Shown here: one piece after another, positions 929-64,000 of the stretch
How the letters are laid out: the number at the start of each line of letters is the position of its first letter
Numbering within the stretch: position 1 is the stretch's first letter
Origin: Paracoccus sp. (in: a-proteobacteria)
Lineage (GTDB): Bacteria; Pseudomonadota; Alphaproteobacteria; Rhodobacterales; Rhodobacteraceae
Reading direction: 5' to 3'
Assembly: GCF_030538655.1 (NCBI RefSeq)
Contig: NZ_JAUNTO010000001.1
Coordinates: 270,809-334,808, forward strand
DNA length: 64,000 nt
Made by a program: the position numbers and the translations under genes
Notes under the pieces: model-generated
What the model was told of the DNA's origin: nothing
Database searches by the model: none
The model's input: only the letters and a program-made list of their open reading frames with translations

Positions 929-1792
929 TTACCGCAGCCGCGCGATCAGGGACGACGTGTCCCACCGCCCGCCGCCCATGCGCTGCACATCCTTATAGAA
1001 CTGATCGACCAGCGCCGTTACCGGCAGGCTGGCCCCGACCTCATCGGCGGCGTCCAGACAAATCCCCAGATCCTTGCGCATCCAATCCACCGCAAAGCCA
1101 AAGTCGAACCGATCCTCGGCCATGGTCGCGTGACGGTTGACCATCTGCCAGCTGCCCGCCGCGCCCTGAGAGATCACCTCGACCAGCGCCGCCACGTCCA
1201 GACCGGATTTCTGCGCGAAGGCCAGCGATTCCGACAGCGCCTGCACCAGCCCGGCGATGGCGATCTGGTTGCACATCTTGGCCACCTGCCCCGCGCCCGC
1301 CTCGCCCATGCGGCGGCAGATGCGGGCATAGGCGGCGATCACCGGCTCGGCCCGCGCGTAATCGGCGTCAGAGCCGCCGCACATTACCGACAGCACGCCG
1401 TTTTCCGCCCCCGCCTGCCCGCCCGAGACCGGCGCATCGACCCAGCCCAGCCCGGCCCCGCGCGCCACCTCGGCCAGTTCGCGCGTGATCTTGGCCGATA
1501 CCGTGGTGTGATCGACGAACACCGCGCCCGGCGTCATCCCGGCAAAAGCTCCGTCATCACCTAACACAACCGATCGCAGGTCGTCGTCATTGCCGACACA
1601 GGCCATGACGAAATCCGCCCCCTCGGCGGCCTGACGCGGGGTGGGCGCGCTGCGGCCACCATGCTGCGCCACCCATGCGCCGGCCTTGGCGGGGCTGCGG
1701 TTATAGACCGTCACCTGATGCCCCGCCGCGCGTAAATGCCCGGCCATCGGAAAACCCATCACGCCCAGTCCCAGAAACGCCACATGCGCCAT
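929..1792 (-). CDS. NAD(P)-dependent 3-hydroxyisobutyrate / tartronate-semialdehyde-type dehydrogenase
   Basis: A beta-hydroxyacid dehydrogenase of the 6-phosphogluconate-dehydrogenase-like family, oxidising or reducing a short 3-hydroxyacid/semialdehyde pair. It shows an N-terminal Rossmann motif GLGVMGFPMAGHL, the substrate-site segment DAPVSGGQAGAENG and the catalytic-lysine segment GQVAKMCNQ, with normal length (287 aa). The start is placed at MAHVAFLG (1792) because AAAGGAC lies about 8 bases upstream; the reading frame extends six codons further but without a better site. Whether the substrate is 3-hydroxyisobutyrate, tartronate semialdehyde or another hydroxyacid cannot be decided from sequence. 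It is divergent from the acylase gene. Confidence 0.85.
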   Translation of the reverse strand: MAHVAFLGLGVMGFPMAGHLRAAGHQVTVYNRSPAKAGAWVAQHGGRSAPTPRQAAEGADFVMACVGNDDDLRSVVLGDDGAFAGMTPGAVFVDHTTVSAKITRELAEVARGAGLGWVDAPVSGGQAGAENGVLSVMCGGSDADYARAEPVIAAYARICRRMGEAGAGQVAKMCNQIAIAGLVQALSESLAFAQKSGLDVAALVEVISQGAAGSWQMVNRHATMAEDRFDFGFAVDWMRKDLGICLDAADEVGASLPVTALVDQFYKDVQRMGGGRWDTSSLIARLR

Positions 1793-1917
1793 GCTGCCTT
1801 GTCCTTTCACTCTGCCGTGCGTTGAAAATCCTGCGCGGCTGTCCTATGCAGCACCCCACCACCCAAGGGCGCGCGGGTCAAGCCGCCCTGCCAGCCGCCA
1901 AGGACCGCCACGACCCC

Positions 1918-4320
1918 ATGCTGACGCTTTTCCGCTGGCTGCTGAGGATCACCATCGGCATGATCGCCGCCTTTGTGGCCGGTGCCGTGCTGATCTGGTA
2001 TTTCGCCATCCGCTCGCTGCCCGATTATGACACCACGATCAGCGTGCCGGGCATCAGCGCGCCGGTAGACATCATCCGCAGCACCGAAAACGTGCCGCAT
2101 ATCTTTGGGCAGAGCGACGAAGACGTGTTCTTTGCCCTCGGGCTGGCCCATGCGCAGGACCGGCTGTTTCAGATGCTGGCGCTGCGCCGCGCCGCGCAGG
2201 GCCGTCTGTCGGAAATCTATGGCGAACGCACGCTGCCCGCCGACGATCTGGCCCGGCGCATCGGCTTTCAGCGGCTGGCGCAGCAGGCACTGACATCGCA
2301 GACGCCACAGGCCCGCGCCGCGCTGGACGCCTATGCGCGCGGCGTGAACGAGTGGATTCGCCAGATCAACCAAGGCGCGCGGGGGCGGGGTGCGCCGGAA
2401 TTCTTTCTCTATCCCGGCGACATTGCCTATTGGCAGCCCGCCGATTCGCTGGCCATCCTCAAGCTGATGGCGGCGGCCTCCAGCACCGCCATGGCGGACG
2501 AGGTGCTGCGCGCGCGCCTGTCGCTGGCCGCGCCCGGTCGCGGGGTCGATCTGCTGGCGCCGCCGGGGGGAATGGCGCTGCCGGATTATGCCGGGCTGTT
2601 CCCCGGCGCACGGCTGTTGCCGCCCGAGCGGTTGCCCTTGCCCCCCGGCCGGGCGACCGAACTGGCGGGATTTTTGCCCTCCGATGCCGGGCTGACGGCC
2701 AATGGTTTCGCGGTCGCCCCCAACCGCACCGCCATGGGGGGCGCGATTCTGGCCAATGATCCGCAAGGCCCGCTGACCGCGCCCGGCCTGTGGTATCTGG
2801 CGCGGTTGGATCTGACCTCGGGCGGGGTGATGGGCGGCACGATTCCGGGGCTGCCGCTGGTGCTGTCGGGGCGCAACGCCGCGCTGGCCTGGGGGATCAC
2901 CCCCGCCGCGCTGGACGATACCGACGTGCTGATCGAAGAAGTGCAGCCGGGCGACAACAACCGCTATCGCACCGAACAGGGCTGGACCAGCTTTGACACC
3001 GCGCGCGAAATCATCCGCGTTCTGGACGGGCAGGACCGCGCCATCACGCTGCGCAGCACCGTGAACGGGCCGGTGATGACCAGCCCGGCCTTGGCGCAGG
3101 TTGCGCCCGTGGGGCATGTGACCGCGATCAGCTGGACCGGCGCGCGGGCCGATGACGCCAGCTTTTCCGCGCTGCTGGGGCTGATGACGGCGCGTGACCG
3201 CAACGCGGCGGCCCGCGCGCTGACCAGCATGACCGCTCCGGCGCTGAACGTGCTGCTGGCCGATCAGCAGGGCGTCGCCCACATCATCGCCGGCGCGGTG
3301 CCGCGCCGCGACCCGGCCAGCCAGACCGCAGGCCGCCTGCCCGCCCCCGGCTGGGTGCCCGCGAACCGCTGGCAGGGGCAGGAACCGGCCCCGCAACCCG
3401 CGCCTGCCGTTGGTCTTGTCACCGCCACCGGCGAGGGGGCGGGCGGTCCGCGCATGGCCCGCCTTGGCCGGTTGATGAACGACCGCGACATCCATTCCCG
3501 CGACAGCCTGATTGAAACGCAACTGGACATCGTGTCACCGGTGGCGCGGCAGTTGCTGCCGCTGGTCGGGGCGGAACTGTGGTTCACTGGCGAACCCGCC
3601 GCCCCCGGCACGACCGAACGGCAGCGGCAGGATGCGCTTGGCCTGCTGGCCGAATGGGACGGCGCCATGAGCGAACACCTGCCCGAGCCGCTGATCTATG
3701 CCGCCTGGATGGCCGCCTTGCAGGACCGGATGATCCGCGACGAGCTTGGCCCTCTGTCTGACGACATCCGCCGCCTGTATCCGGCCTTTATCGAGGCCGC
3801 CTTCCGCAACACCCGTGGCGCGGCGCGCTGGTGCGACGTGGTGCAAAGCGCCCCGGTCGAGGATTGCGCCACGCTGGCCCGGCAGGCGCTGGACGCGGCG
3901 ATTCTGGACCTGAGCGCCCGCTTTGGTCCCGATGTCACCAGCTGGCGGTGGGGCAACGCGCATGAGGCGCATCAGATCAACCCGGCGCTTGGCGGCATCC
4001 CCGGCCTTGGCTGGGTGGTCAATCTGGTGCAATCGACCTCGGGCGGGGATTTCACGCTGGCGGGGGCAGGATCGGCAGGTTTCGGGCCTGATCCGTGGCG
4101 GCAGATCACCGGGGCAGGCTATCGCGCGGTCTATGATTTGGCCGACCCGGACAGTTCGGTGTTCGTGATCTCGACCGGGCAATCGGGGCACCCGCTGTCG
4201 CGCCATTATGACGACATGGCCGGGCTGTGGCGGCGGGGCGAATATGTCACCATGTCGCTGGACCCGGCCCTTGCCCGCGCCGCCGCGCGCGGGATCACCC
4301 GGCTGGAACCGGCTCCCTGA
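1918..4320 (+). CDS. penicillin acylase family protein, membrane-anchored, nucleophile apparently lost
   Basis: Family members are N-terminal-nucleophile hydrolases that mature by self-cleavage and cut amides such as penicillins or acyl-homoserine lactones in the periplasm. This protein (about 800 aa) begins with a hydrophobic anchor (LFRWLLRITIGMIAAFVAG) and the family's SLPDYD segment, then an alpha-chain region (residues 30-240). The beta-chain start would be near residue 261. Where the family has Ser-Asn followed by an aromatic, this protein reads LTANGFAVAP, so Ala261 sits at the position of the Ser that is both cleavage site and nucleophile; Thr260 is the nearest hydroxyl. Downstream family segments (ILANDPQ, GGTIPGLP, WGITPAALDDTD, NARNTRG-like, GWVVNLVQSTSGGDFT) are intact. 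The start at 1918 is chosen from the anchor; an upstream in-frame ATG lies at 1846. Function is uncertain. Confidence 0.8.
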   Translation: MLTLFRWLLRITIGMIAAFVAGAVLIWYFAIRSLPDYDTTISVPGISAPVDIIRSTENVPHIFGQSDEDVFFALGLAHAQDRLFQMLALRRAAQGRLSEIYGERTLPADDLARRIGFQRLAQQALTSQTPQARAALDAYARGVNEWIRQINQGARGRGAPEFFLYPGDIAYWQPADSLAILKLMAAASSTAMADEVLRARLSLAAPGRGVDLLAPPGGMALPDYAGLFPGARLLPPERLPLPPGRATELAGFLPSDAGLTANGFAVAPNRTAMGGAILANDPQGPLTAPGLWYLARLDLTSGGVMGGTIPGLPLVLSGRNAALAWGITPAALDDTDVLIEEVQPGDNNRYRTEQGWTSFDTAREIIRVLDGQDRAITLRSTVNGPVMTSPALAQVAPVGHVTAISWTGARADDASFSALLGLMTARDRNAAARALTSMTAPALNVLLADQQGVAHIIAGAVPRRDPASQTAGRLPAPGWVPANRWQGQEPAPQPAPAVGLVTATGEGAGGPRMARLGRLMNDRDIHSRDSLIETQLDIVSPVARQLLPLVGAELWFTGEPAAPGTTERQRQDALGLLAEWDGAMSEHLPEPLIYAAWMAALQDRMIRDELGPLSDDIRRLYPAFIEAAFRNTRGAARWCDVVQSAPVEDCATLARQALDAAILDLSARFGPDVTSWRWGNAHEAHQINPALGGIPGLGWVVNLVQSTSGGDFTLAGAGSAGFGPDPWRQITGAGYRAVYDLADPDSSVFVISTGQSGHPLSRHYDDMAGLWRRGEYVTMSLDPALARAAARGITRLEPAP

Positions 4321-54978: not shown

Positions 54979-55420
54979 GCGAAGGGCGCGCTGATCCGGC
55001 CTCTGACGGCGGCCAGCCTGCTGATCGTGCCGTCTTTCGTGACGAATATCTGGCAACTGCTGTCCGGCCCGCCCTTTGCCGCGCTGATCCGGTGGCTGTG
55101 GCCGATGGATGGCGATCTGCATCGGCGCCTTTGCCGGGTCGGGCTGGTTGGTGGGCTGTGGCCACCATCGTCCCTGGCATCGCGTGACAGGCCATACCGC
55201 CTTCCCCTTGCTGCCCATCCGACCACCGCACCGCCCGATACACCATCGTGGTCGCCCCGACCGGCCTGCGGACCTGCAAAACCGGCGTGTTCGTCACCCC
55301 CGCCGCGCCCTCTCTGCAAACCCATGGCCTGAACCGCGACAATCTGATGCCAGAGCTTGGGCTGTCCTTCGCCGTCTCGACCGTTGCACTGCCCTTGGGT
55401 CCAGGCGCACGCATGGCGGC
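54979..55420 (+). pseudogene. TauE/SafE (TSUP) membrane permease remnant
   Basis: Three frames in succession match one sulfite-exporter family protein: ALIRPLTAASLLIVPSFVTNIWQLLSGPP (frame of 54889), then AICIGAFAGSGWLVG (frame of 55109), then TCKTGVFVTPAAPSLQTHGL and LGLSFAVSTVALPLG (frame of 55248). The start of the gene is missing or buried in the duplication, and at least two frameshifts break it. The TSUP motifs PSFVTNIWQ and TGVFVTPAxPxLQ make the family assignment good. Confidence 0.65.
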
Positions 55421-55844
55421 TTGGATGCCGCGTTGCCGGACTATCCGCACCGCCCCCCACCCCGGCGCTGCGAGCATATTGAGCCACACCTGCGCCATCA
55501 CATCAGCCCGGCGACTTGGATGCCGTCTGTTCCTGACGTTTCTGCCGTTGCCGGTGGCAAACATCGCGATGCACCCGCTGTGACAGGATGGCGCGCAACG
55601 CCCGCAGCCTGTGTACAGGTTGTGTACAGCCGGTGCACGGCCTGTGCACAGGTTGTGCAGCCAAAATCCCAGCAAATACAGGGCTTGACGGAACACCCCC
55701 GTTGCGCCGATCGCCATGCAACGTCCGCAGCCGTTGCGGCCCCGAAAAAATCACCGCAGCATCTGATTTTTCCTCTTGCACCCCCGGTCACCTGTGACTA
55801 AACACCGCTCCACGCCGCCGGGCAGACCTGGCAGCCGCCATGAT
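55421..55844. other. no intact gene; degenerate TGTGYACA repeats
   Basis: Open frames here show no family features. From 55607 to about 55664 a unit of the form GCCTGTGYACAGGTTGTGYA is present twice (55607 on, 55640 on) with a GGTGCACGG between. The rest separates the permease remnant from tRNA-Glu. Confidence 0.5.
55607..55664. repeat. TGTGYACAGGTTGTGYA direct repeat pair
   Basis: GCCTGTGTACAGGTTGTG (55607 on) and GCCTGTGCACAGGTTGTG (55640 on) differ by one base and are 33 bases apart; each contains overlapping small palindromes (TGTACA, GTGCAC). Role unknown. Confidence 0.6.
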
Positions 55845-55919
55845 GGCCCGTTCGTCTATCGGTTAGGACGCCAGGTTTTCAACCTGGAAAGAGGGGTTCG
55901 ATTCCCCTACGGGCTGCCA
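55845..55919 (+). tRNA. tRNA-Glu (anticodon TTC)
   Basis: Cloverleaf is complete: acceptor GGCCCGT / ACGGGCT, D arm with GGTTAGGAC, anticodon arm CAGGTTTTCAACCTG with anticodon TTC, T arm GGGGTTCGATTCCCC, discriminator G and encoded CCA. The integrase gene follows 160 bases later on the same strand, so the 3' half of this tRNA is the likely attachment site of the element. Confidence 0.97.
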
Positions 55920-55941
55920 GTCACACGATTTTTCTGTCTCC

Positions 55942-56023
55942 ATGCGTCTCAAGCGCCAAGAAAATCGTTTAAAATCAATCTTCCGAAATTCCATGCGTCT
56001 CAGTGCGTCTCTATGCATCTCAG
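55942..56023. repeat. arm-type repeats ATGCGTCTCA beside the attachment site
   Basis: Copies: ATGCGTCTCA at 55942, ATGCGTCTCA at 55993, GTGCGTCTCT at 56003, ATGCATCTCA at 56013. Direct repeats between a tRNA attachment site and an integrase gene are typical integrase arm-binding sites. Two more copies in reverse orientation lie at 57576 and 57586. Confidence 0.55.
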
Positions 56024-56079
56024 CGATGTTGGTATCAAATGCTGGTATCGAAATTTTACGCGATACCAACAGGTGATCT

Positions 56080-57294
56080 ATGGCGCTGACTGATACAGCA
56101 TTGAGGGGCTTGAAGCCTGAATCCAAACCGAAAAAATACAGCGACGGCGGCGGGCTGTTCTTGATGGTCAACCCGAACGGCTCCAAGCTGTGGCGTCTGG
56201 CCTATCGGTTCGACGGGAAACAGAAGACTCTTGCCTTCGGCGCTTATCCTGCCGTGAGACTGGCCGACGCCCGCGCGCTGCGGGACCGGGCCAAGAAGGC
56301 GCTGGCTGATGGTATCGACCCGGCGCGGCATACCAACATTGCCACGACCGATCATGACACCTTCGCGGCTATCGGCAAGGAATGGTTGGCGGCTCAGGAA
56401 CCGACTTGGGCACCGAAGTATGCCCCGCAGGTGATGCGCCAGTTTGAACGCGACGTGTTTCCCGATCTGGGTCAGCGGCCAATCACTGAGATAGAACCCA
56501 GCGAAGTCTTGAAGGTGCTAAGGGCTGTTGAGGCGCGCGGCGCGCAGGACATAGCCAAGAGGCTGCGGCAGAAGATCAGCGCCATATTCCGCTTTGCCAT
56601 CGCCACCGACCGCGCGAAGCTGGACCCTGCCGCCAACCTGAAAGGCGCTCTAAAGCCGCCGCCTAAGACCCGGCACATGGCCGCGCTGCGGGCAGCCGAC
56701 ATGCCCGAATTCATGCAGAAGCTGCGGGCGTTCGACGGCGACCCCAAGACGGTGCTGGCACTGGAACTGCTGATTCACACCATGACCAGAACGAATGAAG
56801 TGCGCTATGGGCGCTGGGATGAAATCGACGGCGATCTGTGGCGCATACCCGCGGACAGGATGAAGGCCGGGCGCGATCACATCATCCCCCTGTCAAAGCA
56901 GGCCAAGGCGATCTTGGACAAGCTGCGGGCGCTGGCGGGCAAATCCGAATGGATAGCCGAAGGGTCACGCGGCAAGCCCATGTCTGAAAATACTATGCTA
57001 TTCGCGCTTTACAGGATGGGATACCACAGTCGCGCGACAACGCACGGCTTCCGTTCAACCGCGTCGACTATATTAAACGAATCCGAATTATGGCGGGCCG
57101 ATGCAATCGAGCGGCAATTAGCCCATGTGCCAACGGATTCGGTTCGCAGCGCATATAATGCGGCTTTGTATTTAGATGAGCGAAATCGGATGCTGCAATG
57201 GTGGTCCGATAAGCTGGATTCATTTGAATCTGCTGGAATTAGTCAACAGGTGACTAAAAACCCGGACACCGATATAAGCGATCTGCTTATCTGA
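56080..57294 (+). CDS. int: tyrosine-recombinase integrase (DUF4102 arm domain)
   Basis: Integrates and excises the element at tRNA-Glu. The 404-aa protein has an N-terminal arm-binding domain (DTALRGLKPESKPKKYSDGGGLFLMVNPNGSKLWRLAYRF), a core-binding helical domain (about 95-190) and the catalytic domain: MTRTNEVRYGRW (Arg), THGFRSTASTILNE (His-x-x-Arg), LAHVPTDSVRSAYNAA (His and Tyr nucleophile). Length matches P4/IntS-type integrases. Codon 320 on is more A/T-rich than the host genes. A terminator follows. Confidence 0.95.
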   Translation: MALTDTALRGLKPESKPKKYSDGGGLFLMVNPNGSKLWRLAYRFDGKQKTLAFGAYPAVRLADARALRDRAKKALADGIDPARHTNIATTDHDTFAAIGKEWLAAQEPTWAPKYAPQVMRQFERDVFPDLGQRPITEIEPSEVLKVLRAVEARGAQDIAKRLRQKISAIFRFAIATDRAKLDPAANLKGALKPPPKTRHMAALRAADMPEFMQKLRAFDGDPKTVLALELLIHTMTRTNEVRYGRWDEIDGDLWRIPADRMKAGRDHIIPLSKQAKAILDKLRALAGKSEWIAEGSRGKPMSENTMLFALYRMGYHSRATTHGFRSTASTILNESELWRADAIERQLAHVPTDSVRSAYNAALYLDERNRMLQWWSDKLDSFESAGISQQVTKNPDTDISDLLI

Positions 57295-57326
57295 GTCGGG
57301 CGACGGGTTGTCACCTGCCACTTGTC

Positions 57327-57353
57327 AAGGCCGCGCGTGAAAGTGCGGCCTTT
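57327..57353 (+). terminator. integrase terminator
   Basis: An 8-bp stem AAGGCCGC (57327-57334) / GCGGCCTT (57345-57352), then TTTCTCATTT, 33 bases after the integrase stop. Confidence 0.7.
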
Positions 57354-57362
57354 CTCATTTAC

Positions 57363-57410
57363 TGTGAATCTCACAATTACCGAGACATTTGGGACAGTTT
57401 CCGCTATGCT
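57363..57410 (+). promoter_or_regulatory. promoter and operator candidate for the primase gene
   Basis: A perfect inverted repeat TGTGA-ATC-TCACA (57363-57375) is followed by GAGACA (57382-57387), a 17-base spacer and TATGCT (57405-57410). The leader then holds an imperfect hairpin (57436-57444 with 57453-57461) before the primase start at 57486. The dyad could be an operator controlling element replication. Confidence 0.4.
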
Positions 57411-57485
57411 GACCAGCGTTAATGCAACGCAAAAACCGCCGCGGTTCTGACCCCGCAGCGGCTTTCAAGATGGGATAGCTTCTGA

Positions 57486-59873
57486 ATGCCTCTAGATAAT
57501 AGCGAATCTGCCCGGCGCGGGCAAGACCTTTCTATTAAAAACTGCGACAGCATAGCTGACCTTTTGGAACTCTCTGAGACGCATGGAGACGCATCGGGAC
57601 ACCCGTTAGACGCCACGAACTGCGCCCTGATCGCGGCAGGTGCCTCGCTGCACTGGCTGGTCGCAGGACAGAAACGCCCGGTTGCCGCAGACTGGTCAGC
57701 TTTGCCGAATCAGACCGAATCGGACCTGCGCGGCAGCTACCGCCAAGGTGCTAACGTAGGCATTCGACTCGGCGAACCGTCGAAGGTTGGCACCGACTAC
57801 CTGCATCTGATCGACCTGGACGTGCGCGACCCCAGCAAGGCGGCTGAGGCATGGGGCGCGTTGTTGGCGATCTGGCCGCAGGCGCGAACCTATCCCAGCG
57901 TCATCAGTGGCAGCGGCGGCGAGTCTCGCCACCTTTATTTCCTGACCAGCGCGCCGTTCCGCAAGCACAAGATCGCCAAGTCGACCGGCTTCACAATGGT
58001 GTTCGACGCCAGCAAGGGCCGCGAGGTGAAGAAGAACGACTGGGAGATCGACCTTATGGGAACCGGCTCGCAGGCCGTTATCCCGCCGTCGATTCACCCT
58101 GACACCGGCTTGCCGTATATATGGGAACGCCCGGTCGATCTGACGCTGGGCGGCTTGGGCATGTGGGTCAACGCGGACCAGGTGGCCCGCTTCGGCGCGC
58201 GGCAGGATACCGGCAGCACCGGCGAACCCGCTGCCCGTCTTGATGAGGTGAACCCCGATCACTTGGCGCAAGCCTTGGCCTTTTTCGATGTCGATGACCG
58301 CGACGATTGGAAAGATGTCGGCATGGCGCTGCATCACCAATTCGCCGGATCGAACAAGGGCTATTCTATTTGGAATGAATGGGCCAAAGCATCCAGCAAG
58401 CACATTGAAAAAGACTCCCGCACTGTCTGGAAGTCATTCAAAGCCGATAAGCCCGGCGCGCTTGGAATCTCGCATCTATTCGACCGCGCCGGAATTGATG
58501 GCTACGGGCGCGGCGTCCAGGTGCTGGATGACGACTTTGACGATCTGCCGGAACTGCCCGTCTCGGGCAAGCGCAACCCTGTCAACGATTTGAACCGGGA
58601 TCATGCCGCCGTGATGATCGGGGGCAAGTTTCGTATCATCATTGAGAACGGCGGTGACTATGAGGTTTTCAACGACACCGAACTTCACAAAATGAATGCG
58701 AACAGGCGGGTGAAGGTGCCCGGCACAAATCGCAGCGAACCTGTCACGGCAGCCTGGATGCGTCACCCGCAGCGGCGAGAGTATCGCGGCGGGCTGGTAT
58801 TCAATCCCAAGGAAACGCCAGTTGGGGCCTATAACATCTGGCGCGGCTGGGCAGTGCAGCCCGACCCGGACGCTTCCTGCGACCTGTTCCTTGCCCATGT
58901 GCGGGACGTGATATGCGATGGCAGCGAGCGGGATTACCACTGGTTGCTTGGCTGGATGGCGCATCTGGTGCAGCACCCCGAACAGAAGCCCGGCACCGCC
59001 GTTGTGCTGCGCGGCGCAAAGGGCGCTGGCAAGGATACCGTGGGCCACTATCTCGGGGCGCTGTTCCCGCGCCACCATGTCACCCTGTCGCAGCCGGAAC
59101 ACCTCACCGGGCGCTTCAATGCCCACATGGAAACGGCGATCCTGATTCACCTTGAGGAAGGTTATTGGGCGGGCGATCACCGGGCAGAAGGCGTCCTGAA
59201 AAACCTCATTACCTGCCAGTCTCTCGAAATCGAGCGCAAAGGCATTGACCCTTACAAGATCGACCATTTCGGGCGGCTGCTGATTACCTCTAACGCGGAA
59301 TGGGTTGTGCCCGCGACTCCCGGCGAACGGCGGTTTTTCGTGCTGGACGTGTCGCCTGCCCATGCGAAGGACACAGCTTATTTCGGTGCGATTTGGAAGG
59401 AACAGGCAAACGGCGGCGCGGGCGCGCTGCTGCACTTTCTGCAATCGTTCGATCTGAGCGACTTCGATGTGCGCAACCCGCCCGAGACGGCGGCGCTGAC
59501 GCGGCAGAAGCTGGAAGGGCTGCGGAACGTCGACGCCTGGTGGTATGACCGGCTTAGCGAAGGCGACTTGTCGCATGGCGTCGGGGATGGCTTCGACAGC
59601 GATCAACCGACTTGGGAAACTTCGGCGATCACAGTCGCCCGTGACGCGCTGCGGTGTAACTATGAAGCATGGCTTGAGCGGCAAAGGTGGCACGGCGCGG
59701 CAATCTCTAGCGAACGATTTGGTAAGAAGCTGCTTGAGTTGTGCGGCGATATTCAGTCGACCCGCCCGCGCGTTTCTGGCGAAAGGACGCGGAGTTACAC
59801 GGTCCCGCCGTTGGCACAATGCCGCAGTGCATTTGCTACGTTCATCGGCAGTGAAGTGGACTGGGATCAATGA
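57486..59873 (+). CDS. primase-polymerase/helicase replication protein of the element
   Basis: A 795-aa protein likely to start replication of the excised element. Residues about 45-230 form a bifunctional primase-polymerase (AEP) domain: IDLDVRD, SGSGGESRHLYF and the later WEIDLMGTGSQAVIPPSIHPDTG. Residues about 260-340 are a PriCT-like domain (ALAFFDVDDRDDWKDVGMALHH, IWNEWAKASS). The C-terminal third is a superfamily 3-type helicase/DUF5906 ATPase: Walker A in LRGAKGAGKDTVGHYLG, a Walker B-like ILIHLEEGYW and the arginine-rich GERRFFVLDVS. It resembles P4 alpha-type and satellite primases. Two GAGACGCAT repeats fall near its 5' end. The stop overlaps the next frame (ATGA). Confidence 0.85.
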   Translation: MPLDNSESARRGQDLSIKNCDSIADLLELSETHGDASGHPLDATNCALIAAGASLHWLVAGQKRPVAADWSALPNQTESDLRGSYRQGANVGIRLGEPSKVGTDYLHLIDLDVRDPSKAAEAWGALLAIWPQARTYPSVISGSGGESRHLYFLTSAPFRKHKIAKSTGFTMVFDASKGREVKKNDWEIDLMGTGSQAVIPPSIHPDTGLPYIWERPVDLTLGGLGMWVNADQVARFGARQDTGSTGEPAARLDEVNPDHLAQALAFFDVDDRDDWKDVGMALHHQFAGSNKGYSIWNEWAKASSKHIEKDSRTVWKSFKADKPGALGISHLFDRAGIDGYGRGVQVLDDDFDDLPELPVSGKRNPVNDLNRDHAAVMIGGKFRIIIENGGDYEVFNDTELHKMNANRRVKVPGTNRSEPVTAAWMRHPQRREYRGGLVFNPKETPVGAYNIWRGWAVQPDPDASCDLFLAHVRDVICDGSERDYHWLLGWMAHLVQHPEQKPGTAVVLRGAKGAGKDTVGHYLGALFPRHHVTLSQPEHLTGRFNAHMETAILIHLEEGYWAGDHRAEGVLKNLITCQSLEIERKGIDPYKIDHFGRLLITSNAEWVVPATPGERRFFVLDVSPAHAKDTAYFGAIWKEQANGGAGALLHFLQSFDLSDFDVRNPPETAALTRQKLEGLRNVDAWWYDRLSEGDLSHGVGDGFDSDQPTWETSAITVARDALRCNYEAWLERQRWHGAAISSERFGKKLLELCGDIQSTRPRVSGERTRSYTVPPLAQCRSAFATFIGSEVDWDQ
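57576..57594. repeat. inverted copies of the arm-type repeat
   Basis: GAGACGCAT occurs twice (57576-57584 and 57586-57594), ten bases apart, the reverse complement of the ATGCGTCTC copies at 55942-56023. They lie within the primase coding frame, 1.6 kb from the attachment site. Confidence 0.55.
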
Positions 59874-60364
59874 TGGCTTCCAGTGCATTTCCGCAGCTTG
59901 ATTGCAGCCCATTTGCCTCGCATCCGGTCCACGTGGTCCAAGTGAGGGATGTTTTTGGTCCAAGTGCCGAAGCCAGAAAAGTCCAGCAAAATCAATGCCC
60001 GGTCCAAGTGGTCCACGTGGTCCACGTAGAATCCTGTTTTGATCTGGACGGTGTGACATTGGACGCAGCGACGGCACAGCCGCAGCCACAGGACGGCACA
60101 GCGTCAGCCCTGAATGAAACTACGTGGACCACGTGGACCACTTGGACCAGCCAACGAATCCAATGGGTTACGAGACGTCTTGCTTGGACCGGCACGTGGA
60201 CCACGTGGACCGGCTCAAGATTGGCTGTGACCGATGATCGACCGCAGTGCATTAACCTTTTGTTCCCACTAGGTTCTTCCGCAGGGTGGCAGGCCGCGGG
60301 GGGCATGGACCCCGATTCGCGACCCGCAGAAGAAAATTTCAAATTGCAAGGCCAAAATAGGTAA
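59870..60364 (+). CDS. possible 164-aa protein spanning the repeat array
   Basis: An ATG overlapping the primase stop opens a frame that ends seven bases before the terminase small-subunit start, so it fits the gene string. Most of the product is made by the repeats (PVHVVQV, QVVHVVHV, TTWTTWTTWT, TGTWTTWT) with no recognisable domain. One repeat (59957) is in another frame. An open frame also exists on the opposite strand through the array, because the 9-bp unit keeps any frame open. Coding status is doubtful. Confidence 0.3.
   Translation: MMASSAFPQLDCSPFASHPVHVVQVRDVFGPSAEARKVQQNQCPVQVVHVVHVESCFDLDGVTLDAATAQPQPQDGTASALNETTWTTWTTWTSQRIQWVTRRLAWTGTWTTWTGSRLAVTDDRPQCINLLFPLGSSAGWQAAGGMDPDSRPAEENFKLQGQNR
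59926..60211. repeat. mirror-symmetric array of twelve 9-bp repeats
   Basis: Six forward copies of GGTCCAMGT start at 59926, 59935, 59957, 60001, 60010 and 60019. Six reverse copies (ACKTGGACC, one GCTTGGACC) start at 60122, 60131, 60140, 60182, 60194 and 60203. The grouping is 2-1-3 then 3-1-2 around a centre near 60072. The two inner triplets form a perfect 28-bp inverted repeat (60001-60028 with 60121-60148). It lies between the replication gene and the terminase genes. Confidence 0.9.
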
Positions 60365-60370
60365 GCGCAG

Positions 60371-60991
60371 ATGACCTATCAAAACTCGACTACCCTGGAT
60401 GATTTGTTCATCACCGCCGATCCGGTGCAGCCCGCCCCGCTTAATCAGCGGGCCGCTGGCAGCCCTTCCCCGGCTAAGGCTACCCGCACACCCAGGAAGG
60501 CCGCAAAGCCTGCCACGGATAAAACGACAATTGCTGAGGGCATACCCAGCATCATGAATGAGGTTGAGATAGCCGCGCTGCTGGGAATCGCCACCTCGCA
60601 GGTCCGAACAAAGACCCGCGACGGCATTCTTGTGAAGGCGCGTGATGCCCGATGGGATGTGCGCGCGTCCCTGCAAGGCTATCTGGCCCAGTTGCGTGAC
60701 GGCACGGTGAAGGGCGGGGGGCAGGTTCCCGACGATCTGAAAGCGGCCAAGCTACGCCAGACCGAAGCCGCAGCGCAAAAACTGGAAATCGCCAATAGCG
60801 TTTCTAAAGGCGAACTGATTCCGGTCGCGGATGTGCGGCGCGAATGGACGACTCTCGCAATCGACCTGCGCACGGCGATCATGGCAATTCCCGCCCGCGT
60901 CACAACTCAGCTTGGGCTTGACCGGGAAGCGCAGGCGGCAATTGAGGCCGAAATCAGATTGGCACTAGAGGAAATCGCAGATCATGGATGA
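60371..60991 (+). CDS. phage terminase small subunit (Nu1-like)
   Basis: Recognises the packaging site on phage DNA. The 206-aa protein has a basic, disordered N-terminus (about 1-50), a helix-turn-helix (MNEVEIAALLGIATSQVRTKTRDGILVKARDARWDV, about 61-95) and a helical oligomerisation part (LRQTEAAAQKLEIANSVSKGELIPVADVRREW). It overlaps the large-subunit gene by eight bases. Family assignment rests on the HTH layout and context. Confidence 0.75.
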   Translation: MTYQNSTTLDDLFITADPVQPAPLNQRAAGSPSPAKATRTPRKAAKPATDKTTIAEGIPSIMNEVEIAALLGIATSQVRTKTRDGILVKARDARWDVRASLQGYLAQLRDGTVKGGGQVPDDLKAAKLRQTEAAAQKLEIANSVSKGELIPVADVRREWTTLAIDLRTAIMAIPARVTTQLGLDREAQAAIEAEIRLALEEIADHG

Positions 60992-62762
60992 TTTGATTAT
61001 CGGCCTGCGCCGCGATGTATTTGCAGCCATCAAGCCGCCCGCGCGCCTCGATCTGGCGGAATGGGTGGAAAAGAATGTTCGCCTGCCTGCTACTGTGGCC
61101 GCGCAATCTGGCCGCTTCAAACTGTTCCCGTATCAGGTAGAAATCGCCCGAAGCATGGGCAATCCTGCCGTGGAGCGGGTTTCTATATTGAAATCAGCCC
61201 GAGTCGGCGCAACTCAATTGATGGTTGCTGCAATCGGGCATTATGCGCTGAATGATCCGGCGGCGCAGATGGTGGTTATGCCGTCCGAATCCGATTGCCG
61301 AATGCTGATGACCAATATCATCGAACCGACATTTGCGGCCAGCCCGGCGCTGCGCAACGCGCTGCTGGAAGATGTGAGCGGGCGCGATACGATGCTTTCG
61401 CGCCACTATCCGGGCGGCTCATTGGCGCTTGTTTCTGGCGGCAGCCCTAAAAATCTGCGCGCCCGAACTGTTCGCACCCTTTGGGTTGACGAAGTGGACG
61501 GACTCGCGCTTTCCGCCGGTGATGAAGGTGATCCGGTTGCCTTGGCCATTCGCCGCACGATGACTTATTCAAACAGGCTAATCGTCATGGCGTCAACGCC
61601 GGTCGACGAAGAAACCAGCCGGATATTGCGCGCCTATAATGAAGGCGATTGCCGTATTTATCAGGTGCCTTGCCCGGAATGCGGCGAATTCCACGAAATA
61701 GAATGGAAGGATATTCAGTGGCCCGAAGGCAAGCCCGAAGCGGCTTATTATGTCTGCCCAAGCTGCGGCTGCGTGACGCAGGAAACCGAAAAGGCAAGGA
61801 TGGTCGCGGCTGGTCGATGGGTTGCGACGAAGCCCGAAGTGACCGGCCATCATAGCTATCGCCTGAACTCGCTTGTTTCGACTCTGCCGAATGCTGCCTT
61901 GGGCCGTCTCGCAACTGAATTCGTCGCAGCCAAGCGCGACCCGTCGTTGCTCAAGACCTGGGTCAACACGGTTCTGGGCCAGGCATGGCGTGATGACAGT
62001 GAGGGACTGGACGAATCCGACCTGATGGCACGGGCCGAACCGTTTTGCCTCGACCGAATACCGCCCGAGGTGCTGACGATCACAGGCGGGGCCGATATTC
62101 AGCGCGACCGCATCGAATTGGCAACTCTGGGCTGGACGGCTGACGGCGCGGCGCTGGTGCTGCGGCATGACGTGTTCTGGGGCGATCCGCTGGCCGGTGA
62201 CGTATGGGTGGACCTGTTCGACGCGCTGCGCCGCAGCTTTCCGCATCCACGCGGCGGAACCCTGCGCTATGACGCGGCCCTTATCGATTCCGGCGATGGC
62301 GTCACCGTCGACGCGGTCTATGACGCGACCCGCGGCAGGTCGCATCAGCGCATCTTTCCGTGCAAAGGCGTATCGGGCTGGAAGCACCCGACTTTAACGG
62401 TCGGGCAGGCACGGCAGAAAACAGTCAGGCTTCAACTGGTCGGAGTCGACGGCGTTAAGGCGCGCATTATGCAGATGGTCGCCGCTGGCGCGTTCCGTTT
62501 TTCGGATCGCGTATGCGATGCAAACTGGTTCGAGCAATTCGTATCGGAGAGATTGCAAGTCAGATACAGCCGCGGCGTTCCGGTGAAGGAATGGCACCGC
62601 CTGCCCGGTCGCCGCGCTGAGGTTTGGGATTGCTGCGTTTATGCTGTGGCGGCTAAATCTCTGGTGCAAATAAATATGGACCGCCGCGCCGATGAACTCG
62701 CATCAGCCGCAGCACCAAAGAAACAACCTGCCGTGATTAAGTCAGCGTGGTTGAGCCGATAA
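60984..62762 (+). CDS. phage terminase large subunit (GpA family)
   Basis: ATPase and nuclease that cuts and packages phage DNA. The 592-aa protein has a variant Walker A ILKSARVGATQLMV, Walker B TLWVDEVDGL, and a zinc ribbon CPECGEFHEIEW...CPSCGCVTQE typical of the lambda GpA family. The C-terminal nuclease part contains GGADIQRDRIEL and ALIDSGDG acidic residues. It overlaps the small subunit. Length is slightly below lambda GpA. Confidence 0.9.
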   Translation: MDDLIIGLRRDVFAAIKPPARLDLAEWVEKNVRLPATVAAQSGRFKLFPYQVEIARSMGNPAVERVSILKSARVGATQLMVAAIGHYALNDPAAQMVVMPSESDCRMLMTNIIEPTFAASPALRNALLEDVSGRDTMLSRHYPGGSLALVSGGSPKNLRARTVRTLWVDEVDGLALSAGDEGDPVALAIRRTMTYSNRLIVMASTPVDEETSRILRAYNEGDCRIYQVPCPECGEFHEIEWKDIQWPEGKPEAAYYVCPSCGCVTQETEKARMVAAGRWVATKPEVTGHHSYRLNSLVSTLPNAALGRLATEFVAAKRDPSLLKTWVNTVLGQAWRDDSEGLDESDLMARAEPFCLDRIPPEVLTITGGADIQRDRIELATLGWTADGAALVLRHDVFWGDPLAGDVWVDLFDALRRSFPHPRGGTLRYDAALIDSGDGVTVDAVYDATRGRSHQRIFPCKGVSGWKHPTLTVGQARQKTVRLQLVGVDGVKARIMQMVAAGAFRFSDRVCDANWFEQFVSERLQVRYSRGVPVKEWHRLPGRRAEVWDCCVYAVAAKSLVQINMDRRADELASAAAPKKQPAVIKSAWLSR

Positions 62763-62765
62763 ACG

Positions 62766-62791
62766 AAAGCCCCCGATCAACGGGGGCTTTT
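62766..62791 (+). terminator. intrinsic terminator after the terminase gene
   Basis: The stem AAAGCCCCCG / CGGGGGCTTT with an ATCAA loop begins four bases after the terminase stop and runs into TTTT. It also covers the 3' end of the minus-strand 58-aa gene. Confidence 0.85.
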
Positions 62792-62953
62792 CACCTTAAA
62801 CACGGTTTCCAGATTGGCGACCGAGAATGCCCGCATATATTTCAGCCGCATTCCGATGATATAGCAAGTCGCTTCATAGGATATGCCGGAGCCTGTCAGC
62901 GTTCTGGCAAGTTGCCGCGTCGACCGTAATTCCATCTTTGATAGTCTGCGCAT
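62777..62953 (-). CDS. 58-aa basic protein, antisense to the packaging genes
   Basis: A short minus-strand gene with a very good ribosome-binding site (AAAGGAG, seven to eight bases before the ATG). The product begins MRRLSKMELRSTRQLARTLT, contains SYEATCYIIGMRLKYMRAF and ends VKSPR. It is basic, helical and may be a DNA- or RNA-binding regulator. No family is recognised. It is preceded on its strand by an intrinsic terminator at 62971-63021. Confidence 0.55.
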   Translation of the reverse strand: MRRLSKMELRSTRQLARTLTGSGISYEATCYIIGMRLKYMRAFSVANLETVFKVKSPR

Positions 62954-62970
62954 GGGGTGACTCCTTTCAT

Positions 62971-63021
62971 AAAAAGGGCGGCAGATTAATCGGGGCCACC
63001 ACTACCCGACAATCTGCCGCC
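62971..63021 (-). terminator. intrinsic terminator or attenuator upstream of the 58-aa gene
   Basis: On the minus strand a perfect 11-bp stem GGCGGCAGATT / AATCTGCCGCC (plus 63011-63021 and 62977-62987) is followed by TTTTT (plus 62971-62975), only 18 bases before the ATG at 62953. A second perfect hairpin AAGCCGGG / CCCGGCTT (63025-63048) lies just ahead of it. Together they could be an attenuating leader or a separate short RNA. Confidence 0.65.
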
Positions 63022-63165
63022 ATAAAGCCGGGAACAGGAACCCGGCTTATCTGCGCTGCTGGATGGATGGAGAACGGAGAGCCACGGCAGCGCAAATCTG
63101 AAATTCGATGGGTGGAGCCGGGCGACTCGCGCCGCCCGGAGCCGATTCGACATCTTGGACGACTC

Positions 63166-63219
63166 ACTTATCGCATAAGTAGATTGTGGATTGCAACTGT
63201 TAAGTTGTTGTGCTACACA
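63166..63219 (+). promoter_or_regulatory. palindromic operator and promoter for the next phage genes
   Basis: ACTTAT-CGC-ATAAGT (63166-63180) is a perfect 15-base palindrome. It is followed by TTGCAA (63191-63196), a 17-base spacer and TACACA (63214-63219). A start near 63226 leads into the 173-aa gene. The palindrome may bind the element's repressor. The stretch 62954-63247 has no other gene. Confidence 0.45.
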
Positions 63220-63247
63220 TCTTTCGAGATGAAGAGGAGTCGGCCCG

Positions 63248-63769
63248 ATGCGCCTATCTGAAATCGCTGACCGGCTGGCGGAACTGGAAGGCCGGGACGC
63301 TGACGAAATCCATATTCGCCTGCGGAATCCGCTGTTTAAGGGGCTGCTGACCGGCGAACCTGGTCGAACCCGCAATTCCCCCGCTGACTATCCGTTCCGC
63401 GAACTGATTCGGGCGCGGCTGCTGCTGGCGATGTTCGACTGCGGCCTTTCGACCGCCGAACTGGCACTTGTCAGCGACATGCTGAACGACCGCTATGGGG
63501 TGACGGGTCCGGGCGGCGCTGCGGTCGAAACGAACCCGCTGAACATGATGACCGATGGCACGGCAGCCGGGGAAAGCTGGTTTGTCACGATCCGCTTTGT
63601 TCGCGGCATGAATGGTGAACGCATCGTCACGCCGCTGTTCTTCAAGGACGGTTCTGCAAGCGTTAGGGACGTGGTTTCGCATGGCGGCGCTAAAGCAACG
63701 CATCTGATGACTTCGATTGTTCCCGCATCCGATCTGATCCGCCCGCTTCTGCCGGAGTCTTCGGAATGA
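63248..63769 (+). CDS. phage protein of unknown function
   Basis: A 173-aa protein encoded between the terminase and portal genes, where lambda-type phages carry a head-joining protein (gpW). It is larger than gpW and not clearly related: an N-terminal helix (MRLSEIADRLAELEGRDADEIHIRLRN) and a second helical segment (FRELIRARLLLAMFDCGLSTAELALVSDML) are followed by a beta-rich part (SWFVTIRFVRGMNGERIVTPLFF). AGAGGAG precedes the ATG. It overlaps the portal gene by four bases. Confidence 0.7.
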   Translation: MRLSEIADRLAELEGRDADEIHIRLRNPLFKGLLTGEPGRTRNSPADYPFRELIRARLLLAMFDCGLSTAELALVSDMLNDRYGVTGPGGAAVETNPLNMMTDGTAAGESWFVTIRFVRGMNGERIVTPLFFKDGSASVRDVVSHGGAKATHLMTSIVPASDLIRPLLPESSE

Positions 63770-64000
63770 GTTTCTTAGATCGCCTTTTCCGCAAAACCGA
63801 ACCCGTGCAAACCCGCCGCTTTGATGGCGCAGCCGGTGGCCGTCGCTGGTCCGCTGCGCCGTCCTTCGGGCGAACCGCGGCTGAGACTCTGGCCGCATCA
63901 GCCCCGATCCGGTCGCGCGCCCGCTATTTTGTGGCAAACAATCCTTGGGCTGCAAATGGCGTGGCCGCACTGGTCACTGGACTGGTAGGCTTTGGGATCA
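63766..64000 (+). CDS. phage portal protein (lambda family), 3' end outside window
   Basis: The first 78 codons of a portal protein, the ring through which DNA enters the capsid. The N-terminus MSFLDRLFRKTEPV is followed by SAPIRSRARYFVANNPWAANGVAALVTGLVGFGI, matching the lambda-type opening (R..NNPWA..AV..LV...VG.GI). The ATG overlaps the preceding stop. Confidence 0.85.
   Translation, partial: MSFLDRLFRKTEPVQTRRFDGAAGGRRWSAAPSFGRTAAETLAASAPIRSRARYFVANNPWAANGVAALVTGLVGFGI

Follow-up and report, generated by a model that had tools for sequence, protein, structure and literature searches.

The repeat array described here, which lies directly 3′ of a primase-helicase gene in an integrated phage-like element, is very probably the replication origin of that element, with its iterons predicted to be bound by the C-terminal domain of the adjacent helicase in a two-hexamer mechanism. 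This reading is based on the position and symmetry of the array, its recurrence behind homologous helicases, the change of the iterons while the geometry is kept, and the helical phasing seen across the family. Iterons 3′ of an initiator-helicase gene are a known kind of origin (that of the SaPIs); the phased two-arm variant of it recurs in a large part of the helicase class.

Results

A mirrored array behind a primase-helicase gene

The array spans positions 59926-60211 of the window (the whole 64-kb stretch of DNA analysed). It contains 11 exact copies of GGTCCAMGT and a 12th with one mismatch, and our analysis confirmed the grouping described in an earlier sequence-only reading, 2-1-3 forward and 3-1-2 reverse:

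59926, 59935, 59957, 60001, 60010, 60019, forward strand: starts of the six forward copies
60122, 60131, 60140, 60182, 60194, 60203, reverse strand: starts of the six reverse copies
59926..59943, forward strand: left outer iteron pair, 2 copies, 9-bp step
59957..59965, forward strand: left single outer iteron, 44 bp (~4 turns) start-to-start to the inner triplet
59990..60002, forward strand: left spacer with a putative, weak IHF-like site, 2 mismatches to WATCAANNNNTTR
60001..60027, forward strand: left inner iteron triplet, 3 copies, 9-bp steps
60028..60121: candidate melting region, the centre that separates the two inner triplets
60122..60148, reverse strand: right inner iteron triplet, 3 copies
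60158..60170, forward strand: right spacer with a putative IHF-like site, 2 mismatches
60182..60190, reverse strand: right single outer iteron, GGTCCAAGC, one mismatch, 42 bp start-to-start from the inner triplet
60194..60211, reverse strand: right outer iteron pair, 2 copies

The exact 9-mer was found nowhere else in the window (11 copies observed versus 0.63 expected; the maximum in 100 shuffles was 4), and two adjacent copies (GGTCCANGT twice) occur only at this locus in the source genome (3.08 Mb, 48 contigs, listed as 90% complete). The group centres nearly coincide, as had been noticed (60068.5, 60073.5 and 60074.5 by arithmetic), and the A/C variants do mirror each other within the inner triplets; those of the outer pairs do not. 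The inner inverted repeat is indeed perfect, but extends over 29 bp (60001-60029 with 60120-60148, 90 bp between the arms) and not over 28 bp.

The genes around the array are:

56080..57294, forward strand: tyrosine integrase gene (Pfam)
57486..59873, forward strand: primase-helicase gene, 795 aa, with Prim-Pol, PriCT_2 and DUF5906 (SF3) domains (Pfam; DNA primase in PHROGs) and a C-terminal winged-helix-like domain at about aa 713-763 (C-terminal profile)
59870..60364, forward strand: 164-aa open frame spanning the array, not a conserved protein
60371..60991, forward strand: terminase small subunit gene (phrog_57)
60984..62762, forward strand: terminase large subunit gene, gpA type (Pfam)

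The array starts 53 bp past the stop codon of the primase-helicase gene, whose product is the candidate initiator for it, and ends 159 bp before the terminase small subunit gene. Several phage records (RDJL Phi 1, RDJL6, Chuck) annotate homologues of this primase-helicase as integrase. A tRNA-Glu gene (55845-55919), just ahead of the integrase gene, is a likely attachment site. The window contig stops soon past the terminase genes. A relative from viral contigs, L060 (1-13977), has matches to integrase, primase, origin, terminases, portal, a capsid-protease fusion and head decoration, with no tail-gene match among the seven of its proteins scanned; judging by this gene content, the element (56080-63999 of the window) may be a capsid-forming, PICI-like satellite.

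Arrays in close relatives

A protein search of 196 related genomes gave 8 with a match at E 1e-20, the window's own among them. The array anticipated downstream of homologous primases is present, directly 3′ of the gene and with altered iterons, in each of the four relatives recovered at 72-82% identity over the helicase half:

L104: 82% (helicase half), array score 12, iteron GTCCAACCT
L105: 79% (helicase half), array score 4, degenerate form of the L104 iteron GTCCAACCT
L111: 72% (helicase half), array score 6, iteron GGTCCAAGC
L060: 80% over query residues 358-795, array score 11, iteron GGTCCAAGT

L104 and L111 belong to one genome (G118). An element with the same primase lacking the array had been named as grounds for abandoning the reading, and it applies in part: no array was detected 3′ of the primase gene of RHph_X2_30, at 45% identity, but the four closer relatives all carry one. 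L106 (63% identical over query residues 22-366) has a VapE-type helicase half and a different iteron, GTGAACC. Arrays of more distant relatives have GTGATCC (L107), GTGACCC (L108) and GCCCATG (L109, without an open centre). The L104 helicase (1498-3786) has the Walker A sequence GAGEDT where the window has GAGKDT, from which it may be inactive.

Mirrored arrays behind SF3 helicase genes

We surveyed SF3 helicase genes using profiles built from 15 DUF5906-type and 5 VapE-type helicases, some of which had come from array-selected loci. The scored region was 520 nt, beginning 20 nt before the helicase stop codon, and the score was that of the best mirrored 7-mer, with a threshold of 4. The first set of 233 sequences, phage records among them, gave 170 helicase open reading frames (loci without one dropped out), 166 of them with enough downstream DNA and 119 left after removal of near-duplicates. 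In this unsupervised scan a mirrored array was found behind 43 of the 98 protein-fetched genes, the window's own included (DUF5906-type, 17/52; VapE-type, 26/46). Only 12 of 2380 shuffles of the regions downstream of the helicases reached the threshold, and the window array, with a score of 8, exceeded them all (largest 4). In control regions an array was seen behind 4 of 266 other open reading frames (3/181 in protein-fetched loci) and upstream of the helicase in 5 of 95 cases. A further 21 loci had been fetched by GGTCCA patterns, and the arrays in 18 of them have no evidential value.

A replication set was assembled from 54 fresh viral loci fetched by a closer protein profile, which gave 51 helicase open reading frames, and 40 after 11 duplicates were dropped. 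Here an array was present in 25 of 40, versus 3/135 among control windows and 5/800 among shuffles. The proposal of an iteron-type origin for the neighbouring primase-helicase gains support from these two counts. Demanding a centre of 31-149 bp leaves 39/98 and 22/40. The eight arrays at or above threshold without such a centre (L030, L109, L167, L156, L229, L242, L268 and L286), some of which may be chance, contribute to the main counts and were omitted from the tests of phasing, IHF sites and AT content. When each cluster at 50% identity is given a single vote, the fraction averages 0.36 (at least one array in 27 of 67 clusters); at 40% identity it is 0.19 (6 of 21 clusters). No array was detected behind the helicase in 55 of the 98 and 15 of the 40 protein-fetched genes, phage records L081-L085 included; these negatives, and the low count of clusters at 40% identity, weigh against the origin reading. 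Among 73 negatives, 7 have an array scoring at least 5 elsewhere in the fetched stretch, in a search without a control.

Individual loci add some detail. The named lytic-type phage record L086 (Pseudomonas phage ZQG1) has a mirrored array of GGTCCGA, score 8, behind its primase gene, so the layout also occurs outside prophages and metagenome contigs. Three contigs of 10-15 kb (L015, L034, L062) have equal open reading frame lengths and the order Prim-Pol-like, VapE helicase, mirrored array, HNH, terminases, portal. In L005 (1861-2041) a GGTCCAAGT array lies at the 3′ end of a Prim-Pol/AAA_25 gene that Pfam does not call SF3, and in L043 (8169-8461) the two arms of a GGTCCA array are swapped in order, and the open reading frames listed nearby include no helicase. 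We rejected the idea that GGTCCA arrays are one conserved site: translating L013, L014 and L040 shows that some of the 67 viral pattern matches encode collagen-like Gly-Pro-x repeats. Among 14 matches to the GGTCCA pattern in genomes, L091 lies, by eye, within a repetitive coding frame; L092, L093, L095, L096 and L097 are further loci among the 14. A DNA-level search of phages for the window array gave nothing useful.

Geometry of the arms and of the centre

While iteron sequences differ between arrays, the geometry recurs. In the 46 arrays scoring at least 5, 54 of the 92 arms have an innermost step of 9 bp, and the centre exceeds 30 bp in 44 arrays (median 92, quartiles 82 and 107). Distances from inner to outer iterons cluster near 43, 54, 65, 75 and 86 bp, a period of 10.7. 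Over all 82 such distances that lie between 36 and 92 bp in open-centred arrays, the vector length R is 0.635, a value reached by 0 of 5000 smoothed resamples; protein-fetched loci alone give 0.56 (55 distances; 0/5000 as high). In the replication set 37 distances fall at 41-44, 53-55, 64-66 and 74-75 (R 0.87), and with one member per cluster R is 0.67 at both 50% identity (~47 distances) and 40% identity (~11 distances). The length of the centre shows no phasing (0.28 at best). Phased arms around an unphased centre suggest that each arm is one assembly on one helix face and that the arms are independent. For the window array, the 7-mer parse misses the first inner copy and gives inner-to-outer distances of 53 and 54, whereas the 9-mer copies give 44 and 42.

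Exact mirror symmetry was rejected as a family rule. Left and right inner-to-outer distances are uncorrelated (r -0.23, 29 arrays), and their mean difference is 14.0 versus 15.4 when shuffled (p 0.21); the near-perfect mirror in the window is a single case.

The spacers within the arms are enriched in IHF-like sites. With the IHF consensus and no more than one mismatch allowed, we found a site in 27 of the 116 inner-to-outer spacers versus 22 of 1160 control segments of the same loci, and an exact site in 7/116 versus 0/1160. The centres show no such enrichment (4/78 versus 4.6 expected). The right-spacer site in the window equals AATCAATGGGTTA of L087 and L099 plus one extra C.

On average the AT content of the centre lies 9 points above that of its own locus, and it is the higher of the two in 56 of 64 arrays. 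Of the 64 centres, 12 contain an alternating purine-pyrimidine run of at least 18, versus 1 of 1280 shuffles. The centre of the window array has no such run and is not AT-rich (AT 0.42 versus 0.41 for 55001-64000); this, and the two mismatches in each of its IHF-like sites, counts against the origin reading. In L020, L099, L108 and L237 alternating runs of 36-41 bases lie between the arms, and these are possibly easily melted or Z-DNA-prone.

The C-terminal domain of the helicase

A C-terminal profile of 42 relatives was compared with six C-termini that are Pox_D5-like by Pfam (Sfi21, P4 alpha, L099, L049, L102 and L098). The hhalign probability was 95.5% (E 1.5e-8, 47 columns), so that by profile comparison the window helicase has a winged-helix C-terminus of the D5/P4-alpha type; Pfam gives no winged-helix match in the window protein itself. 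The PDB matches of the helicase profile are chains deposited as Primase (6k9c, 6k9e), and RFX5 aligns weakly with its C-terminal part (E 0.034).

Similarity of iterons follows similarity of the C-terminal 100 aa with rho 0.46 and of the core with 0.43 in 37 protein-fetched arrays, and the partial rho is 0.19 (p 0.012). The partial value is 0.57 when array-selected loci are included (n=27) and shrinks to the former without them. The association itself speaks for the origin reading, its modest size without those loci against it. The VapE-type set gives a partial rho of 0.22 (p 0.0005, n=29). The best 40-residue stretch is aa 756-795 (0.49), with aa 566-605 of the core close behind (rho 0.45), which also counts against. 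The helicases of the window and L104 have 96% of the core and 55% of the C-terminus in common, and their iterons differ.

Comparison with known origins

The sequence-only reading knew of no described origin with this mirrored layout, a statement that does not hold well in view of the SaPI iteron origins. Their two iteron sets are reportedly symmetric, and the centre of the SaPI origin is AT-rich, whereas that of the window array is not. According to the available portion of PMC7581432, the SaPI iterons lie directly downstream of the Rep helicase gene, are apparently bound as two hexamers and are recognised by the helicase C-terminal domain. The likeness covers the short iterons and the place of the origin directly 3′ of an initiator-helicase gene (Ubeda et al., as described in the same portion). 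Against the features of SaPI, P4 and Sfi21, the window has an array directly 3′ of an SF3 primase-helicase gene and multiple short iterons in two opposed sets, and lacks an AT-rich region between the sets. For SCCmec, the same portion of PMC7581432 reports that the C-terminal domain of Cch2 binds the region 3′ of its own gene and that this binding requires direct repeats in the region; these are three 5-nt direct repeats, not mirrored, and the polymerase is separate.

In the record of Streptococcus phage Sfi21 (NC_000872), 302 bp immediately 3′ of a DUF5906/Pox_D5 gene are annotated as the replication origin. This origin contains mirrored TTAGTTAC pairs with 8-bp steps around an AT-rich centre. 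It differs from the window array in its AGTTAC-core iteron, AT-rich centre and fewer copies, and in having Prim-Pol and helicase on separate genes. In P4 (NC_001609) crr lies directly 3′ of the alpha gene, whose product has a C-terminal Pox_D5 domain, and has 8-bp type I iterons in both orientations, some with a 9-bp step. However, crr is two direct 120-bp units and not one mirrored array (score 1), ori lies about 4.5 kb away and the primase is of the TOPRIM type. The place and form of the Sfi21 origin, the place of crr and the findings on Cch2 and pRN1 (below) speak for the origin reading. That crr is not mirrored overall, and that Sfi21 and phage BPP-1 (below) score no higher than the threshold of 4, counts against it.

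Alternative readings

pRN1 and the Bordetella phages BIP-1 and BPP-1 share with the window an AEP primase, an SF3 helicase, a winged helix and an inverted repeat 3′ of the gene. The available part of PMC4234260 reports that the region 3′ of the AEP-SF3 replication gene of pRN1 is required for replication, proposes that a stem-loop 3′ of the pRN1 and BIP-1 genes is recognised as a structure, and terms BPP-1 nearly identical to BIP-1; the model of its authors is a stem-loop, and they found no iteron origin. By the same token the 29-bp inverted repeat of the window, perfect as it is, could form a DNA stem-loop or cruciform recognised by its structure. This would also be an origin, so that its odds overlap with those of our preferred reading; taken by itself we consider it unlikely. 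The array strand folds far better than shuffles (z -8.6), but mirrored repeats must fold, and the fold score is a by-product of them; an RNA hairpin control element, suggested earlier, is not needed, although the strand can fold. A hairpin leaves the outer groups and the helical phasing unexplained. In 28 arrays with varied inner triplets (4 invariant arrays omitted), mirror partners are more alike than other copies in 8, less alike in 4 and equal in the rest (p 0.11), which gives no support for selection on pairing, although a hairpin may contribute. Moreover, what lies in the stem-loop region of BPP-1 is 9-bp repeats in a mirrored pair: behind the replication gene TTGCCTCGT occurs twice and its mirror twice. 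Since shuffling, at its best in 1000 trials, also yields a score of 4, it is the exact tandem pairs that carry the case. We infer that these pairs are the stem of PMC4234260, as far as the available part describes it. BPP-1 differs from the window in that an inner pair alone was found, with a small annotated gene between it and the replication gene.

Equally improbable, in our estimate, is an operator array for autoregulation or copy control, bound by the helicase or a repressor, although such a role may coexist with that of an origin. Iterons often control copy number too, and by annotation the crr iterons behind P4 alpha are a second site apart from ori. The window array, however, is 3′ of the primase-helicase gene, the comparable site in Sfi21 is annotated as a replication origin, and the 3′ region of pRN1 is needed for replication (PMC4234260, available part).

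A packaging (cos or pac) site for the terminase small subunit, also raised from the sequence, is very improbable. Terminase genes do come directly after the array here and in L060, L049 and L015, but the array recurs behind the helicase gene in both survey sets (43/98 and 25/40). The gene next to it is not a terminase gene in L105, L111, Sfi21 or P4 crr: in L105 and L111 the next open reading frame of at least 110 aa encodes a resolvase, at or just before the end of the fetched stretch, and Sfi21 has an annotated cos site about 6 kb from the annotated origin. An array that travels with the terminase and not with the helicase, as a packaging site would, is not what L105, L111 and Sfi21 have. 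Finally, coding repeats of the 164-aa protein, or a chance repeat, can be all but dismissed: the open frame spans the array and 24 residues of its repeat part match L111 at E 1.2e-4, but the peptide has no family match in Pfam or PHROGs and lacks a conserved counterpart in L060 despite 80% identity of the primases (best match E 0.23), copy 59957 is, as had been pointed out, off the frame of the remaining forward copies, and shuffles never attain the score of the array, all of which bears out the view that it functions as DNA rather than protein.

Discussion

In the mechanism that we propose for the origin, the C-terminal winged-helix-like domain of the primase-helicase would bind the 9-bp iterons, with one oligomer per arm (outer group plus inner triplet, ~4 helical turns apart and hence on one helix face) and a bend of the spacer DNA, possibly by IHF, presumably aiding assembly of the arm. 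Two oriented SF3 hexamers would thereby be loaded face to face across the ~94-bp centre and would melt it, and the fused Prim-Pol domain would prime bidirectional replication.

A broader proposal, to which we give an even chance, is that a single grammar is common to SF3 origins in phages, prophages and satellites: a pair of mirrored arms, each with an inner block in 9-bp steps and an outer block 4-8 whole turns away, a spacer bent by IHF where the host has IHF, and a centre of about 60-130 bp. The iteron ‘word’ would change with the C-terminal domain and so give each element a private origin, as L104 and L111 would have within one genome, and the published stem-loops would be the inner blocks. 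A general phased grammar or IHF-like spacer sites were not found in the literature searched, with most subscription journals outside its scope, nor was the phased grammar found in the available portions of PMC7581432, PMC7145576, PMC4234260, PMC13376191 and PMC5043065.

For many phages and satellites no replication origin is known. Should the grammar hold, the origin could be read from the sequence behind many SF3 primase-helicase genes, and pairing iteron words with initiator domains would lead to a recognition code. The helical phasing would then mean that each arm works as a single folded assembly, and the orientation of self-loading helicase double hexamers at origins would become directly testable in small replicons.
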